42,340 nucleotides of DNA from a virus. Where the stretch lies: IMG/VR virus record IMGVR_UViG_3300038701_002031, positions 1-42,340 of that record; one strand, given 5' to 3'. The notes under the pieces are model-generated. The model saw nothing but the letters and a program-made list of their open reading frames with translations, made no database searches and was not told the origin of the DNA. Positions 12,742 through 32,139 of the stretch are shown piece after piece (within the stretch, counting starts at the first letter, position 1; each line of letters opens with the position of its first letter). Position numbers and translations under genes: made by a program.

Positions 12742-13296
12742 TCACACAGGTTGGCAAACGACCATATAGGCTTTGTCGCCCTTTGGAATGAACTCGTCGG
12801 TCGGTTTAAGGCCGTGCTTGATAAGCTGGTCGCGCCACCACTTCGGCTCCTGAATGGTGATGTGAGCGTTGCGACCGTCGGCCAGCTTCTTCACCGCTGG
12901 CTGGCAGCTGATTACGAAAAACGCTGCGCACTTGGTCAGGCTTGCAATGTGAGACAGGACCGCGCTGACGCTGCCCTCCTCAACATGCTCCATCACGTCA
13001 ATGCAGAGAACCAAGTCGTGCGGGTTGGGCAGCTCTGGGTACGTGGCCGGGTCGTAGTTGGTCACGTCGATAACCTGAGACAGCACACCCTTTCCGCACC
13101 CATAATCAAGAACGGTGTCGGCCCCGTATTTGGCAATGAGCGAACACACGTCTTCAATGTGGGCCTCGGCGCTGGTCCCCCAATTTGGCTCTGCGTGAGC
13201 CTCAATAAGAAGCTTGAGGTAGCTGTCGCTAATCAGGTTCTCAGGGCGCAAAGCGCCTTCAGCTTCTCTATCGCGCTCTGGATTTCCGGCTGCCAT
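12742..13296 (-). CDS. class I SAM-dependent methyltransferase
   Basis: 184 residues. The SAM-binding motif I is DTVLDYGCGKGVLSQVIDVT (about residues 60-80), and motif III/IV is HDLVLCIDVMEHVEEGS (about 93-109), the usual acidic and hydrophobic strand of small Rossmann methyltransferases. The substrate is not evident; no target-recognition domain or NPPY/DPPY DNA-methylase motif is present, so a DNA target is less likely than a glycan, small molecule or protein. The start ATG at 13296 has a strong AAGGAAG site 8 bases upstream and lies 64 bases inside the end of the glycosyltransferase-like gene, so the two are expressed together. This pairing suggests methylation of a sugar added by that neighbour (inference). 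Confidence 0.85.
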   Translation of the reverse strand: MAAGNPERDREAEGALRPENLISDSYLKLLIEAHAEPNWGTSAEAHIEDVCSLIAKYGADTVLDYGCGKGVLSQVIDVTNYDPATYPELPNPHDLVLCIDVMEHVEEGSVSAVLSHIASLTKCAAFFVISCQPAVKKLADGRNAHITIQEPKWWRDQLIKHGLKPTDEFIPKGDKAYMVVCQPV

Positions 13297-14669
13297 GTAT
13301 TTTCTTCCTTTTGACGAATGACCGTGTGGGTCTTGTAGAAGTGCATCGAGCTTTCGCCCGCGCTCTCCGAGTAGCGCCAGTCTGGGCGCTTGGGTACGAG
13401 AACCGTTGTCGGCACGCCGAGCGCGCCAGCCAAGTCCACTGCGGTGGTGGTAACTGAAAGCACGCGATCCAATGCGCCAACCACGCCAGCCACAAGCGAA
13501 AGGTCATTATTGAATTTGTCCAAACCCAGATTGTGAAGGTTCGGCAAGTCTGGCACTTTGGTCTGCCCGTACTCAAGAGAAAAGAAATCGATGTCGGGCA
13601 GCTCTCGGCAGATATGCTCAATTTCATCAGCTGTGAGTGACCGGCGATACCAGCCGGTGGCGACTGAGCCGCCATTCCAAGCAAGGCCAACCAGCATCTT
13701 TGCATTTGGTCGCGCCGCTGCGGTAACAAGCTCCTCGCCCGCGCACCGATAGGGTTTGGGACAAATCAAATATGGATTGATCTGGTGCGGGCCGGTGCCG
13801 CTGGTTTTCTGGAAATGCAGGGGAAGACTGCCAAAGGGTAGCTTGTGCGTGACGGGGCGAGAAAGCTCCTGATGCCACGTCACCATGCTTTGGAGCCGGG
13901 TGCCATAGACCGCCTCTACCGCCGGGTGCTTACCAAAGGTTTCTGCAAAAAGGCTCTGGGTTTGCGGATTGACCTCAAGAACCACCTTGGCCCCACGGTT
14001 TTCAGCGTGGTCAAGGGCCGCCTCAAGGAAACCAGCAAACATGAATTCGTCGCCGGGGCCTTGCTCGCCGTGAATGACCACCATGTCCTTGTTGGAGGCC
14101 ACGTTGGGAACCCACAGGTCGGTCGGACCCTGAGTGTAGTCACGCCGAGAGCGCCACTTGTTGCCATAGGATTTGGCGTAGTGCTTCCACGCCTTGTCCC
14201 ACTGCCCAAGGTGAAGGAGGGCAAGGCCCAGCGCATTGTGCGCGTCCTGACTGGCGGCGTTGAGCTTCAAAGCCCGCCTCGCTAAGTCAACAGCCTCGGC
14301 GTATCGACCAAGGTGGCAGGAGGCATTTGCCATATTGGCAATCGGCTCCCATGCGTCCGGCTCGATGTCGCTGGCTTTTTTGTAAAACGCCTTAGCCTGC
14401 TTGGGGTGCTGCTCTTGAAAGCAGTTTCCCAGATTGTTCCAAGCCTGCCAAAACTCTGGCTTAGCAGCGACGCATTGCTGGAAGGCTCCGGCAGCGGCGG
14501 CTGTGAGGCCAAGGTGGGTCAAGGCCACGCCAAGCATATAAAGCGCATCGGCGTCCTTGGGGTTAACCTCAAGAACCTTGTTGGCAGCCACGGCGGCGGC
14601 CTGATACTGCTCGGTTTGAAGACAATAGTCGGCGTCGATAAACGCCTTTTCGATAGACGGGTGCTGCAT
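13233..14669 (-). CDS. TPR protein with glycosyltransferase-like C-terminal domain
   Basis: 478 residues from the ATG at 14669 (GAGGG site just upstream; an ATG at 14684 is also possible). Residues 1 to about 175 hold about five tetratricopeptide repeats with the usual small/large residue spacing, for example DADALYMLGVALTHLGLTAA, FWQAWNNLGNCF, and SQDAHNALGLALLHLGQWDK. The remainder resembles the GT-B half of TPR-containing O-linked glycosyltransferases: VVIHGEQGPGDEFMFAGFLE early, MLVGLAWNGG in the middle, and TTAVDLAGALGVPTTVLVPK near the end, the last being the nucleotide-sugar side of that fold. Such proteins transfer a sugar to protein or glycan. Its place inside the head operon, next to a methyltransferase, suggests modification of virion proteins or host surface. 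Substrate unknown. Confidence 0.8.
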   Translation of the reverse strand: MQHPSIEKAFIDADYCLQTEQYQAAAVAANKVLEVNPKDADALYMLGVALTHLGLTAAAAGAFQQCVAAKPEFWQAWNNLGNCFQEQHPKQAKAFYKKASDIEPDAWEPIANMANASCHLGRYAEAVDLARRALKLNAASQDAHNALGLALLHLGQWDKAWKHYAKSYGNKWRSRRDYTQGPTDLWVPNVASNKDMVVIHGEQGPGDEFMFAGFLEAALDHAENRGAKVVLEVNPQTQSLFAETFGKHPAVEAVYGTRLQSMVTWHQELSRPVTHKLPFGSLPLHFQKTSGTGPHQINPYLICPKPYRCAGEELVTAAARPNAKMLVGLAWNGGSVATGWYRRSLTADEIEHICRELPDIDFFSLEYGQTKVPDLPNLHNLGLDKFNNDLSLVAGVVGALDRVLSVTTTAVDLAGALGVPTTVLVPKRPDWRYSESAGESSMHFYKTHTVIRQKEENTWQPEIQSAIEKLKALCALRT

Positions 14670-14695
14670 CCTACCCTCTTTCATAGGGCCTCGGC

Positions 14696-15079
14696 TCAGA
14701 CGGTGAAGTGACCTCTGCGCAGATAGGCGTATTCGTTGGAATTCAGCTTTCGACGAACGGCGGGCCAATGGTCCTCGTTGAACAAGTCAATGCCGTCTTC
14801 GACAAGCCACTTGTGGATAATGGAATTTGGGATGGTCGCAGCCACCCACATATCCGGGTCTTTCTTGTAGCCCTTCTCGTCGTGAGCGATGAAGCGCTTG
14901 TTGTCTTCCAGAATGTCAAATTGAGACGGCTGAACGGTATAGGTCCGCGTCTCGTCGGTGTCTGGGTCGTAATCAAAATACGTGAAGGTGTCGCCCACAT
15001 AGTCAGCGTCAAGCAGCGACCAGTTGCCGGGCGGCAAGAGGCTTTCGTGACCGGGTAAAACGTTGCGGGCGCTCTGCAT
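14696..15079 (-). CDS. hypothetical protein of the head operon
   Basis: 127 residues from the ATG at 15079, one base after the upstream stop, with an AGG site. The N-terminus has RNVLPGHESLLPPGNWSLLD; the middle is rich in Asp and Tyr (DTFTYFDYDPDTDETRTYTV). A region IAHDEKGYKKDPDMWVAATI and a charged end follow. No family was recognised. It lies between a basic small protein and the TPR gene, 12 bases from the latter. A structural or accessory role is plausible from position only. Confidence 0.6.
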   Translation of the reverse strand: MQSARNVLPGHESLLPPGNWSLLDADYVGDTFTYFDYDPDTDETRTYTVQPSQFDILEDNKRFIAHDEKGYKKDPDMWVAATIPNSIIHKWLVEDGIDLFNEDHWPAVRRKLNSNEYAYLRRGHFTV

Positions 15080-29055: not shown

Positions 29056-29089
29056 CAAAAGAAAAGCCCCGCCGGTGAGGGCAGGGCTT
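29056..29089 (-). terminator. intrinsic terminator of the ATPase/VWA operon
   Basis: Minus strand: AAGCCCTGCC (29089 to 29080), a short loop and GGCGGGGCTT (29073 to 29064), then TTCTTTT. One internal mismatch. It follows the stop at 29115, where the minus operon ends. Confidence 0.8.
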
Positions 29090-29114
29090 CAAGGTAGTGT
29101 CTGGGGTTTGTGGC

Positions 29115-29396
29115 TTAGGCCATTGAGAGCCCATCTTGTAGGCCTGTTAGGTAGGCGTGCATGGCGTCATAGAGGGCGCGCTTAGAGGCGTAGCCAATGC
29201 TTAGAACGTCGACGCATCCCCCGGCTTCGTTGGTTATCTTTTCCAGCTTCCACCCGCCGTAAGCGCCGCTAAGGGTGAATGTGCCGACATTGGCGCGCCC
29301 GGTTTGAGGGTCTAGCGCCTCGTTCGGGACTTGGTGTAGCCAGTTGATGCGTTCACACAAGCGCTCAAGCTGGGCTTTCGTAATTCGATCGGTCAT
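29115..29396 (-). CDS. hypothetical protein, last gene of ATPase/VWA operon
   Basis: 93 residues. MTDRITKAQLERLCERINWL, then NVGTFTLSGAYGGWKLEKIT and CVDVLSIGYASKRALYDAMH. The motif TFTLSGAYGGWKLEKI...GYASKRALYDAMHAYLTGLQ is one I associate with small uncharacterised phage proteins. It begins ATGA inside the upstream stop, so it is coupled to that gene. Function unknown. Terminator follows directly. Confidence 0.65.
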   Translation of the reverse strand: MTDRITKAQLERLCERINWLHQVPNEALDPQTGRANVGTFTLSGAYGGWKLEKITNEAGGCVDVLSIGYASKRALYDAMHAYLTGLQDGLSMA

Positions 29397-29704
29397 TGGC
29401 TGCGCTCCTCGCTTGCAAGGTCCATCTGGTGAGCGTCAAAGGCCTGATGCGGGTCTTCTACGGCCTTGGCCAGTCCTGCGCTCATATTGTGCCAAACGTC
29501 CTCCCTCGCCTCGGCTTCGGGGATGGCCGCAAGGGCGGCGTTGGAAAGGGCGCTGGCGGTGGCTATCACGTGGCGCAATGCATAGCGCTCTTGGCTTGCG
29601 GTGTGTCCTTGGCGCTCTGCCTCTTTCATCGTGGTTTCTAGCACGGCTTCGGTGGCAACGCTGAGCAAGCGGGCAAGGTCGCGGGTGTCGATTGTCGTTT
29701 TCAT
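29393..29704 (-). CDS. helical hypothetical protein
   Basis: 103 residues from ATG 29704, which follows AAAACGAC and a GAGA site. MKTTIDTRDLARLLSVATEA, then VLETTMKEAERQGHTASQER and ATASALSNAALAAIPEAEAR. Helical throughout. It shares the AAAACGACATG start context with the next gene upstream. No family recognised. Confidence 0.6.
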   Translation of the reverse strand: MKTTIDTRDLARLLSVATEAVLETTMKEAERQGHTASQERYALRHVIATASALSNAALAAIPEAEAREDVWHNMSAGLAKAVEDPHQAFDAHQMDLASEERSQ

Positions 29705-29735
29705 GTCGTTTTTCTCTTTTGGGTCTGATTGTGGA

Positions 29736-29993
29736 TTAGCGGGTTTGTCTGGAAACCTCATCCATGGCTGCGGCAAGGTCTGCGGTGTAATCGCGCGCCT
29801 CGGCCTCGCTGTCGTCGTCCAGTAGCTCGCCAAGCGGTCGAGCCAGTGCGCCTCGGTTGACTAGCTCTTGCATGAGCGCTCGCGTTGACAGGCTGGCGAG
29901 CCAGTGCGCGGCATACTCAAGTCCACGGGTGCGCACAAGCTCCTCGGCCTGAGCGGCAACGGGGGCGGGGAAGTGCAGGGTTATCGGTTGCAT
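29736..29993 (-). CDS. hypothetical protein of ATPase/VWA operon
   Basis: 85 residues: MQPITLHFPAPVAAQAEELV, then RTRGLEYAAHWLASLSTRAL, and an acidic tail with LLDDDSEAEARDYTADLAAA. Preceded by AAAACGAC like the next gene, so likely with a similar ribosome context. A small helical adaptor is possible. No family recognised. Confidence 0.6.
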   Translation of the reverse strand: MQPITLHFPAPVAAQAEELVRTRGLEYAAHWLASLSTRALMQELVNRGALARPLGELLDDDSEAEARDYTADLAAAMDEVSRQTR

Positions 29994-29999
29994 GTCGTT

Positions 30000-30140
30000 T
30001 TATCCTTCTGCGGCGATTAAAGCGGCGGCGGCTGCTGCTAGGGCAATCAGCAACCCGCCAAGTGTGGGTAGGGTTTGTAGGGCTGTGAGGGTGAGCGCGG
30101 CGCTAATAGCCCATAAGCCGCGCCGCTCGTGCTTCCTCAT
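30000..30140 (-). CDS. 46-residue membrane protein
   Basis: ATG 30140 overlaps the VWA-like stop as ATGA. MRKHERRGLWAISAALTLTA, then LQTLPTLGGLLIALAAAAAA, LIAAEG. One or two hydrophobic helices, with a basic start. Translated together with the VWA-like protein, so may anchor it or a partner at the inner membrane (inference). Confidence 0.6.
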   Translation of the reverse strand: MRKHERRGLWAISAALTLTALQTLPTLGGLLIALAAAAAALIAAEG

Positions 30141-31069
30141 ATCTCCAGCCCCTGTTGGCGCGCTTGGTCGATGACAAAGCGGACAACCTCGCCAAGGTCC
30201 ATTGAGCTTATTTGACGCCAAGGCGGGCTCTCGTCCTCCTTGATCTGGCTTGGCAGGGTCAAAAGGTTTTGCGCTTTCAGCTGGTCGCGCAATACCTCGC
30301 CTAGGCGCTCGCATTTCTCGCCGCGCATCGCTGTCCCGTAGCCGCCTGAATGCTTGGAAAGCGGCTCTCCTGCGCGCTCAAGGGCTGCAAAGCCTATCCG
30401 GCGCATCGAGGCGGGGTGCATGCCCTGAAACGCGCAGCGCGCGGCGCTGAACGGCTGCTCGGGTGAGAACAGCGGCGCAACGGCTGCAAAGAATGGCCTT
30501 CGCCCCACATTGAAAAAAGCTGTGTAGGCGCGGACACGGTAGCCCTTCCGCGATAGCACGGCCGACAAGGCCAGCGCCGCCGCTGTGATCTTCATAAGGT
30601 CCTTGGCTTCCACGTAATGCGGGCAAGTCAGGTCGAGCACGATTGCCACGGTCGGGCGAGAGCGCGCCGCGCCTTTCTTCTGGCGCATCATGTGGCGCGG
30701 GTCGCCTGCTGCAAAGCGTGGGGCATGTACGCCAAAGCCTGCCTCGGCAAACACGGTGCGCACTGCCGGGGCCTTGTCGCGTGCAATGGCTGAGGCGGAG
30801 CGGGTCGCGCTTGCAAGGTCCTTGGCGCCCTCGGTCCACAACTCGCGGCCTAGGCCATAGTCTCGCGCGCCCTCCCATTGCACGCCGAGCGTCCATTCGT
30901 AATCATCGTCAGTCTTGCGGCTGCTACGGGCTCCGAAGTCCTTGCGCTGCTGCTCGGCCTCGGCGCTGTCGTCGTCGCCAAATCTGACGAGCTGGTCAAA
31001 GCTGTCGGCAATCAGGGTATGGGTTTCTGGTCCGCGCCCCTGTGCCTTTTCCCATTTAAGCGTTCGCAT
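30137..31069 (-). CDS. VWA-like / DUF7192 protein (CobT-associated type)
   Basis: 310 residues from ATG 31069 with AGAGGAG upstream. Residues 1-60 resemble the DUF7192 opening: ADSFDQLVRFGDDDSAEAEQ, WTLGVQWEGARDYGLGRELW. Residues 138-190 hold the VWA-type core: PTVAIVLDLTCPHYVEAKDL then AAALALSAVLSRKGYRVRAY. The end of the core has MHPASMRRIGFAALERAGEP. A full MIDAS (DxSxS) is not seen; only Asp-Leu-Thr is in place, so metal binding may be weak or absent. In bacteria, VWA proteins of this kind act with MoxR/CobS-type AAA+ ATPases to remodel partners, as in cobaltochelatase. Here the ATPase is 5' of it with a 53-residue protein between. CobN is absent. Confidence 0.72.
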   Translation of the reverse strand: MRTLKWEKAQGRGPETHTLIADSFDQLVRFGDDDSAEAEQQRKDFGARSSRKTDDDYEWTLGVQWEGARDYGLGRELWTEGAKDLASATRSASAIARDKAPAVRTVFAEAGFGVHAPRFAAGDPRHMMRQKKGAARSRPTVAIVLDLTCPHYVEAKDLMKITAAALALSAVLSRKGYRVRAYTAFFNVGRRPFFAAVAPLFSPEQPFSAARCAFQGMHPASMRRIGFAALERAGEPLSKHSGGYGTAMRGEKCERLGEVLRDQLKAQNLLTLPSQIKEDESPPWRQISSMDLGEVVRFVIDQARQQGLEI

Positions 31070-31217
31070 GGTCTGCGCGCTCCTCTGCTGCGGTTTCCTG
31101 AAAACCAAAGAAGGCCGGGTGTAACTCGGTTTCTTCAATGGCCAAGCGCTCCTCGCGCTCTTGAATTTCGCGGTCCAGCTGGTCCAGCTGTTGGCGGGTG
31201 AAGCTCTGGTAAAGCAT
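31056..31217 (-). CDS. 53-residue protein between ATPase and VWA genes
   Basis: ATG 31217 with GAGGA. MLYQSFTRQQLDQLDREIQE, then REERLAIEETELHPAFFGFQ, ETAAEERADHANA. A helical hairpin-like peptide with many Glu residues. It begins after the ATPase stop and its end overlaps the VWA-like start by 14 bases. Could be a small adaptor between the two (inference). Confidence 0.65.
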   Translation of the reverse strand: MLYQSFTRQQLDQLDREIQEREERLAIEETELHPAFFGFQETAAEERADHANA

Positions 31218-31221
31218 GGCT

Positions 31222-32139
31222 CTAATCCTCTTCGCCGCGCGCTGCTTCGCGCTTGATGGTGTCAACGGTGGAGGCGTCCAGCCCCTTAAATATTAGCATG
31301 TCCTCGACGTCGGCTTGCTTAATGCCGTCATGCAAAAGCTGTGCGCCTTTGATGCTGGCGCGCGGCGTGGCGCTGCATTGTGCGCCCACTTTCTCAATGG
31401 CCGAGCGAAGGGCCAAAACGCGGTCCACCCAATAACCAAAACGAGCCGGGATGAGCGAGCGCTCAAAGTCGCTGTCATAGTCGATTTTAATACAGGCGAG
31501 GCGGTCCAGTACCGCGCTGTCATGCTCCACGGCTGCGGAGTAACCGACTTCCTCGCCGCGCCCTGCGGTGTTGCCAGTGCCGCCAAAATAAAAGGCTTCG
31601 TGTTGGCGGATGGTCTCCCCATCAGGAAACAACGCGCGACCACTGGAGAGCGCGTCGTTCAATGCGGTTACGGCTGTCGGGTCGCAACGGTCCATTTCGT
31701 CGAGGCAATACACACCGCCATGTTCGAACGCATCGCGGAAGGCTGTCCGGCGATACTCGCCGCGACCGTCACGAAAGCCAAAAATTTCAAAGGCGCTTTC
31801 AACGCGACCTTGAACATAGCACCGAACACCCAAGGCCTCGGCGGCTTGCTGCATGATGGTCGACTTGCCCGAGCCCTTCGGCCCAAACAAGTAAACACCA
31901 ATACGCATAAGAACCGAGACAATAGTTTTCAGCTCCGGGTGTGGGTTTTCCACTTTCCCGATTTCCAGCCCGTCCTTGTCGAGCGTGACAATCTCGGCGG
32001 CGCGGTCTCCGCCTCCGCCTTTGAAGCCTGCGGCGTCTGCGATTTTCTGAAATGTCTCCGGGTCACTTAAGTAGGCTTCAATAATAGCAGTGAAGCCGTT
32101 TTCCATCATAGTACGCGGGTCTGATACTGGTCGTGGCAT
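31222..32139 (-). CDS. CobS / MoxR-like AAA+ ATPase
   Basis: 305 residues from ATG 32139 (CAGGAG site). Walker A is GPKGSGKS (86-93), Walker B is VYCLDEMDR (143-151), sensor 1 is GGTGNTAG (186-193), and the block VLDRLACIKIDYDSDFER (210-227) corresponds to the sensor 2 side. The stretch between sensor 1 and that block resembles the cobaltochelatase CobS protein more than other MoxR members. CobS works with CobT and CobN to insert cobalt; only the CobS-like and VWA-like partners exist here, so I infer a remodelling machine reused by the phage. First gene of a coupled minus-strand operon. Confidence 0.85.
   Translation of the reverse strand: MPRPVSDPRTMMENGFTAIIEAYLSDPETFQKIADAAGFKGGGGDRAAEIVTLDKDGLEIGKVENPHPELKTIVSVLMRIGVYLFGPKGSGKSTIMQQAAEALGVRCYVQGRVESAFEIFGFRDGRGEYRRTAFRDAFEHGGVYCLDEMDRCDPTAVTALNDALSSGRALFPDGETIRQHEAFYFGGTGNTAGRGEEVGYSAAVEHDSAVLDRLACIKIDYDSDFERSLIPARFGYWVDRVLALRSAIEKVGAQCSATPRASIKGAQLLHDGIKQADVEDMLIFKGLDASTVDTIKREAARGEED

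Follow-up and report, generated by a model that had tools for sequence, protein, structure and literature searches.

A widespread phage gene pair of a MoxR-type ATPase and a DUF7192 protein is probably a protein-remodelling machine and not a cobalt chelatase

An AAA+ ATPase that resembles CobS and is encoded next to a VWA-like protein raises a question about its role in a phage; namely, whether the two belong to a cobalt chelatase, in which CobS and CobT act with CobN, or to a machine that remodels other proteins, as MoxR/VWA pairs do. We analysed such a pair in the window, the whole 42,340-base stretch of an IMG/VR viral record, which carries the structural genes of a tailed phage (portal, phrog_1216; capsid, phrog_1328; scaffold; and terminase). 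A preliminary description had reported four genes, all overlapping and in a fixed order, with two tiny proteins accompanying the pair. All four were confirmed on the minus strand and the order (ATPase, 53-residue ORF, DUF7192 gene and 46-residue ORF) was right; overlap at every junction was not. The genes are tightly packed, with a gap of 4 nt between the ATPase gene and the 53-residue ORF, an overlap of 14 nt between that ORF and the DUF7192 gene, and a 4-nt ATGA overlap between the DUF7192 gene and the 46-residue ORF. The run extends beyond position 30000 through ORFs of 85, 146 and 93 codons to an intrinsic terminator, before the small terminase gene. Codon use was scored per codon against the long genes of the phage (in-frame mean 0.39, s.d. 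0.14; off-frame mean -0.38, s.d. 0.24). The features are as follows:

31222..32139, minus strand: MoxR/CbbQ/NorQ-like AAA+ ATPase, 305 amino acids (phrog_249, E = 1.8e-38; AAA_5, E = 1.1e-13; codon score 0.29)
31861..31884, minus strand: Walker A motif of the ATPase, GPKGSGKS, residues 86–93 (G86 and K92 invariant in 89 homologues)
31696..31710, minus strand: Walker B motif of the ATPase, YCLDE, residues 144–148 (D147 and E148 invariant in 89 homologues)
31056..31217, minus strand: Glu-rich orphan protein, 53 amino acids (10 Glu; codon score 0.53; AGAGGA site upstream)
30137..31069, minus strand: VWA-like partner, DUF7192 (PF23822, phrog_1909), 310 amino acids (Pfam E = 3.2e-18; phrog_1909 E = 6.7e-21; codon score 0.21)
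30620..30634, minus strand: degenerate MIDAS motif 1 of the DUF7192 protein, D146-L-T148-C-P150 in place of the full DxSxS (from the homologue alignment)
30000..30140, minus strand: hydrophobic orphan ORF, 46 amino acids (start in the ATGA overlap with the DUF7192 stop; one hydrophobic segment, Kyte–Doolittle 2.25; codon score -0.07)
29736..29993, minus strand: ORF of 85 amino acids in the same run (codon score 0.28; no convincing family match)
29393..29833, minus strand: ORF of 146 amino acids in the same run, true start uncertain (codon score 0.18)
29115..29396, minus strand: ORF of 93 amino acids, last in the run (phrog_15513, function unknown, E = 9.8e-5)
29063..29090, minus strand: intrinsic terminator that closes the run (11-pair stem and T tail; -20.2 kcal/mol, z = -2.85)

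A promoter scan gave no more matches than expected by chance, and PADLOC returned weak matches only, which lends no support to any known role in defence. Homologues of the 93-residue protein lie downstream of the ATPase/DUF7192 pair at two other loci (L040 and L043; E = 6.2e-9). Elsewhere in the window, methyltransferase-like and weakly glycosyltransferase-like ORFs are found within the structural gene region (12742–14768).

The ATPase carries the Walker A and B motifs that had been described for it, and both are conserved across the 89 aligned homologues. With sensor-1 N190, Arg finger R213 and sensor-2 R260, they make up the complete residue set of an active AAA+ enzyme, nearly all of it invariant in the same alignment; together with the AAA_5 match, these elements constitute the signature of the MoxR group. 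The secondary-structure string of the AF2 model (pLDDT 89.3) has two short strands (residues 122–123 and 129–130) that break helix 2, giving a helix-2 insert at about residues 121–131. Compared with known structures, the model is closest to CbbQ2 (Z = 20.8) and NorQ (Z = 16.9–20.3), followed by other AAA+ proteins at up to 16.6; CobS is absent among the structural matches listed, which is not evidence either way. A profile of the family ranks the PDB sequences differently, with midasin first (E = 1e-39), followed by CobS (2e-19), CbbQ (4e-10) and NorQ (3e-7). The C-terminal Pfam domain of CbbQ/NirQ/NorQ was not matched by the ATPase at E values of up to 1.

The annotation of phrog_249 is ‘porphyrin biosynthesis’, and the match to CobS in the PDB and a weak alignment of DUF7192 with CobT at the MIDAS region are in keeping with this label. 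Taken at its word, the pair would be an auxiliary metabolic CobST that works with the CobN of the host and boosts cobalamin synthesis, as in the hijack of host CobN proposed earlier for viral cobST (PMC8651126). We consider this very unlikely for the following reasons. The ATPase scores 18.6 bits against the CobS equivalog model TIGR01650, more than 500 bits short of the cut-off of 558.55, and midasin outranks CobS as its sequence match. The expected chelatase subunit, CobN (PF02514), is missing from the window record, as had been noted at the outset, and a search of the records of 50 relatives, some of which may be fragments, did not find it either; CobT (PF06213) is absent from the same 50. 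The MIDAS of the partner is degenerate, and hundreds of phages that infect Staphylococcus, Mycobacterium and Gordonia carry the pair. Staphylococcus aureus is not known to synthesize cobalamin de novo, which also counts against a CobST function. Because CobN and CobT are absent from these records and the CobS model is missed, the hijack hypothesis transfers poorly to this group, although host CobN could still serve. The ‘porphyrin biosynthesis’ label of phrog_249 in phage genomics, with its reading of CobS as an auxiliary metabolic gene, is probably wrong for this large group.

The partner was assigned to DUF7192, and its start is most likely ATG 31069 rather than TTG 31138, because the extension scores as non-coding, GAGGAG precedes the ATG and Met occupies that column in 71 of 78 homologues; the TTG was rejected on the codon use of the extension. 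No other Pfam family, VWA included, matched the protein, and a search of PDB sequences with the DUF7192 profile did not find a VWA protein, so that the likeness to VWA domains comes from structure only. With the AF2 model (pLDDT 88.7), the top five Foldseek matches are NorD VWA domains (E = 5.6e-6 to 1.4e-3), and the next, unrelated match follows at 2.7e-2; VIA-align places NorD and the MIDAS domain of Rea1 in a tie for the best match at Z = 8.5, near the level that unrelated folds can reach, and global superposition is poor (Foldseek TM about 0.3). At this middling score, the model suggests a VWA fold nearest to the VWA domains that ride on AAA+ rings. The predicted structures thus place the ATPase nearest to CbbQ2 and NorQ, and its partner, described beforehand as VWA-like, nearest to the VWA domain of NorD and to Rea1-MIDAS.

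The incomplete MIDAS of the preliminary description is also present. Judged at motif 1, the protein lacks an intact MIDAS (DxSxS-T-D); a profile comparison sets its D-L-T-C-P on the DNSGS of bacterial CobT with E = 0.0012 and a probability of only 19.5. Across the 78 homologues, the first MIDAS position is N in 32, D in 11 and E in 9, and on this alignment the MIDAS is degenerate throughout the DUF7192 family, not just in the window phage. Immediately before beta-1 lies a conserved segment (residues 104–135) with an invariant G111. One Rhizobium phage DUF7192 protein (L004:5111-6289) has an N-terminal stretch resembling DUF5710, at an E value of 0.0012 that is below the Pfam cut-off.

The extent to which the two genes travel together was determined from 80 IMG/VR loci obtained with an ATPase alignment, eight further loci and the window, which reduce to 76 non-redundant loci; selection was by the ATPase only. 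The sequence of 74 of them extends far enough downstream to show the following gene; DUF7192 immediately follows the ATPase in 72 of these (median gap 2.5 bp), and the remaining 2 have a DUF7192-like gene on the upstream side of the ATPase. The distance between the two genes does not exceed 120 bp in 69 of the 72. In the window, DUF7192 likewise lies downstream of a phrog_249-type ATPase, with the 53-residue gene between them. The pair is carried by named phages that include Gordonia phage Octobien14, Rhizobium phages P106B and X2_24, Tunturi_4, Sinorhizobium phage phiM5, Staphylococcus phage Stab22 and Mycobacterium phages Faith1 and Archie. The ATPase matches 431 of 50,697 phage records (236 from Staphylococcus, 80 from Mycobacterium and 70 from Listeria), and DUF7192 queries from a Staphylococcus phage and a Gordonia phage match 236 Staphylococcus and 88 Mycobacterium phage records. 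Many Mycobacterium phage records have two DUF7192 places apiece.

DUF7192 is rare in bacteria: it occurs in 3 of the 289 alphaproteobacterial genomes searched and in none of 14 controls. The ATPase adjoins it in all three, and these copies fit prophages or their remnants. The window lies far from the relatives that were found, with about 41% identity to the nearest ATPase. Single-protein scans of IMG/VR returned one relative of the ATPase and none of the window DUF7192, the other relatives being reached through the ATPase alignment, and tblastn with the window DUF7192 matched no phage. Since these searches missed known relatives, the window copy of DUF7192 is divergent. The literature searched does not name DUF7192, and that on podoviruses of related hosts does not mention the pair.

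The surroundings of the pair vary. Terminase-like genes occur in the flanks of 19 loci, and three of four cluster representatives match terminase families; these neighbours hint at packaging or assembly. In several named phages, the pair is placed among small, early-type genes. In phage phiM5, a 65-residue ORF nested out of frame within the ATPase gene (L007:1349-1546) is annotated as detected in the proteome of the phage particle.

The two small genes had been singled out as apparent dedicated adaptors, with the 46-residue protein as a possible membrane tether, and as perhaps the undescribed part of the locus. As described, the 53-residue product is rich in Glu, and its codon use, which resembles that of the long genes of the phage, marks it convincingly as a coding gene. 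The hydrophobic segment reported for the 46-residue product is present, whereas its status as a gene is ambiguous because of its codon score. Searches of the 50,697 phage records and of the ORFs at about 95 loci found no homologue of either protein, and the 53-residue protein, the one of the two searched for in IMG/VR, has none there. The short distance between the ATPase and DUF7192 genes leaves no room for a middle gene in nearly all relatives. Small hydrophobic ORFs follow the pair at 11 of 50 loci, some of them redundant, and none is recognizably related to the 46-residue protein.

One could still suppose that all four products form a dedicated membrane-tethered complex, with the 46-residue protein as the anchor and the 53-residue protein as the adaptor. 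The tight packing of the genes speaks for such an arrangement, as do the Twort-like phages, in which a membrane protein of 93 amino acids follows the pair, and the Rhizobium phages, in which two small genes separate the ATPase from DUF7192; these parallels are loose and do not amount to conservation. Given that both small proteins are orphans, that the middle gene is missing in nearly all relatives and that the codon score of the 46-residue ORF is ambiguous, we regard a four-part complex as very unlikely. Across the loci, all of which are distant relatives of the window, the position of the small genes beside the ATPase is not conserved, an outcome that the preliminary description had itself named as refuting its view, and neither the adaptor role, nor the tether, nor the importance attached to these genes was borne out. 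Both products are more plausibly passengers or accessory factors specific to this lineage than core parts.

A neighbour that does recur is a putative metallopeptidase. Clustering of neighbouring genes across the 76 loci identified a family of HExxH proteins at 19, of which 16 are directly upstream of the ATPase (for example, L012:2927-3538) and 2 are downstream of the pair. A Pfam scan of eight members matched six to SprT-like at E values of 0.005 or better and one weakly, and the eighth had no match. The window has no such gene; the only HExxH strings in it fall in two frames, of 71 and 84 codons, neither of which is assigned as a gene. In a Staphylococcus jumbo phage, a MoxR-like ATPase that was found in the virion adjoins a metallopeptidase gene (PMC10638138). 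This adjacency and that of the SprT-like genes would suit ATP-dependent proteolysis or processing, in which the ATPase and its VWA partner would feed or license a peptidase that, in the window phage, was lost, derives from the host or is encoded elsewhere. Most loci, however, lack such a gene, as does the window, and we judge this function unlikely.

Comparison with characterized systems instead favours remodelling by the ATPase and DUF7192. For both window proteins, NorQ–NorD ranks first or close to first among the structural matches, and it likewise pairs a small ATPase of a single module with a partner of VWA type, the helix-2 insert and the catalytic motifs being present in the window ATPase; DUF7192, at 310 amino acids, lacks an intact MIDAS and is shorter than NorD, which is about 70 kDa (PMC9976466). 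In NorQD, the VWA domain inserts a finger into the AAA+ pore and is turned in ATP-driven steps (PMC9976466, PMC13036017). The rubisco activase CbbQ–CbbO provides the closest structure for the ATPase, in CbbQ2, but the window ATPase lacks the C-terminal domain match and there is no rubisco context. Midasin (Rea1) resembles both window proteins, as the best sequence match of the one and a joint best structural match of the other; it is a single giant eukaryotic chain with its own MIDAS domain.

Pairs of an AAA+ ATPase and a VWA-type protein are also known from viruses. Those of cyanophages and haloviruses, which like the window phage are tailed viruses, are usually read as cobST (PMC8651126); the window differs in having DUF7192 instead of CobT, in falling below the CobS cut-off and in lacking both an intact MIDAS and CobN. 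In jumbo-phage group 2.2, a MoxR ATPase and a vWA cochaperone are linked to a metallopeptidase (PMC7824862); there the vWA protein and the peptidase form a single fusion protein, whereas some relatives of the window encode the peptidase in a gene of its own nearby and the window itself has none. The archaeal virus ATV has a MoxR ATPase, p618, that is present in the virion and binds the VWA protein p892; the two, which are larger than the window proteins, have been proposed as a chaperone of tail development (PMC4124505).

Our observations cover the order and homology of the genes, the folds predicted for their products, the degenerate MIDAS and the absence of CobN from the records. Going beyond them, we consider it likely, by analogy with these systems, that the pair forms an ATP-driven machine that remodels proteins and has two parts, in which a ring of the MoxR-type ATPase bears a cap with a VWA fold, DUF7192, and that it is not a cobalt chelatase. 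The earlier suggestion of a phage remodelling machine that lacks a chelatase thus holds by analogy (the structural matches to NorQ/NorD, CbbQ and midasin, and the missing CobN), without its membrane tethering. The ATPase would assemble as a MoxR-type ring, presumably a hexamer, and DUF7192 would most likely cap it as NorD does NorQ and CbbO does CbbQ. Hydrolysis of ATP might then be converted by the cap into pulling or twisting on a bound target protein, and the conserved segment at residues 104–135 could act as a finger in the AAA+ pore. Because the MIDAS is degenerate, the target would probably be gripped by protein–protein contacts and not by the usual metal bridge. Such a target may be an intermediate of virion assembly or a host complex that is dismantled or reprogrammed during infection, and we consider these about equally likely.

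Viral MoxR/VWA pairs have already been described; possible novelties are the DUF7192 class of VWA proteins without a MIDAS and the SprT-like neighbour that it frequently has. A bolder proposal, which we put forward tentatively and consider possible but doubtful, is that DUF7192 represents a class of VWA cochaperones without a MIDAS that is widespread among phages and specific to them, that together with the MoxR ATPase, and in many phages with a SprT-like metallopeptidase, it forms an undescribed remodel-or-cleave machine hidden by the ‘porphyrin biosynthesis’ label, and that small lineage-specific proteins adapt this machine to its target. Labels of this kind feed claims that viruses boost the synthesis of vitamin B12. 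As the pair is common and conserved, and is present in phages of common laboratory hosts such as Mycobacterium smegmatis, its role is directly testable.
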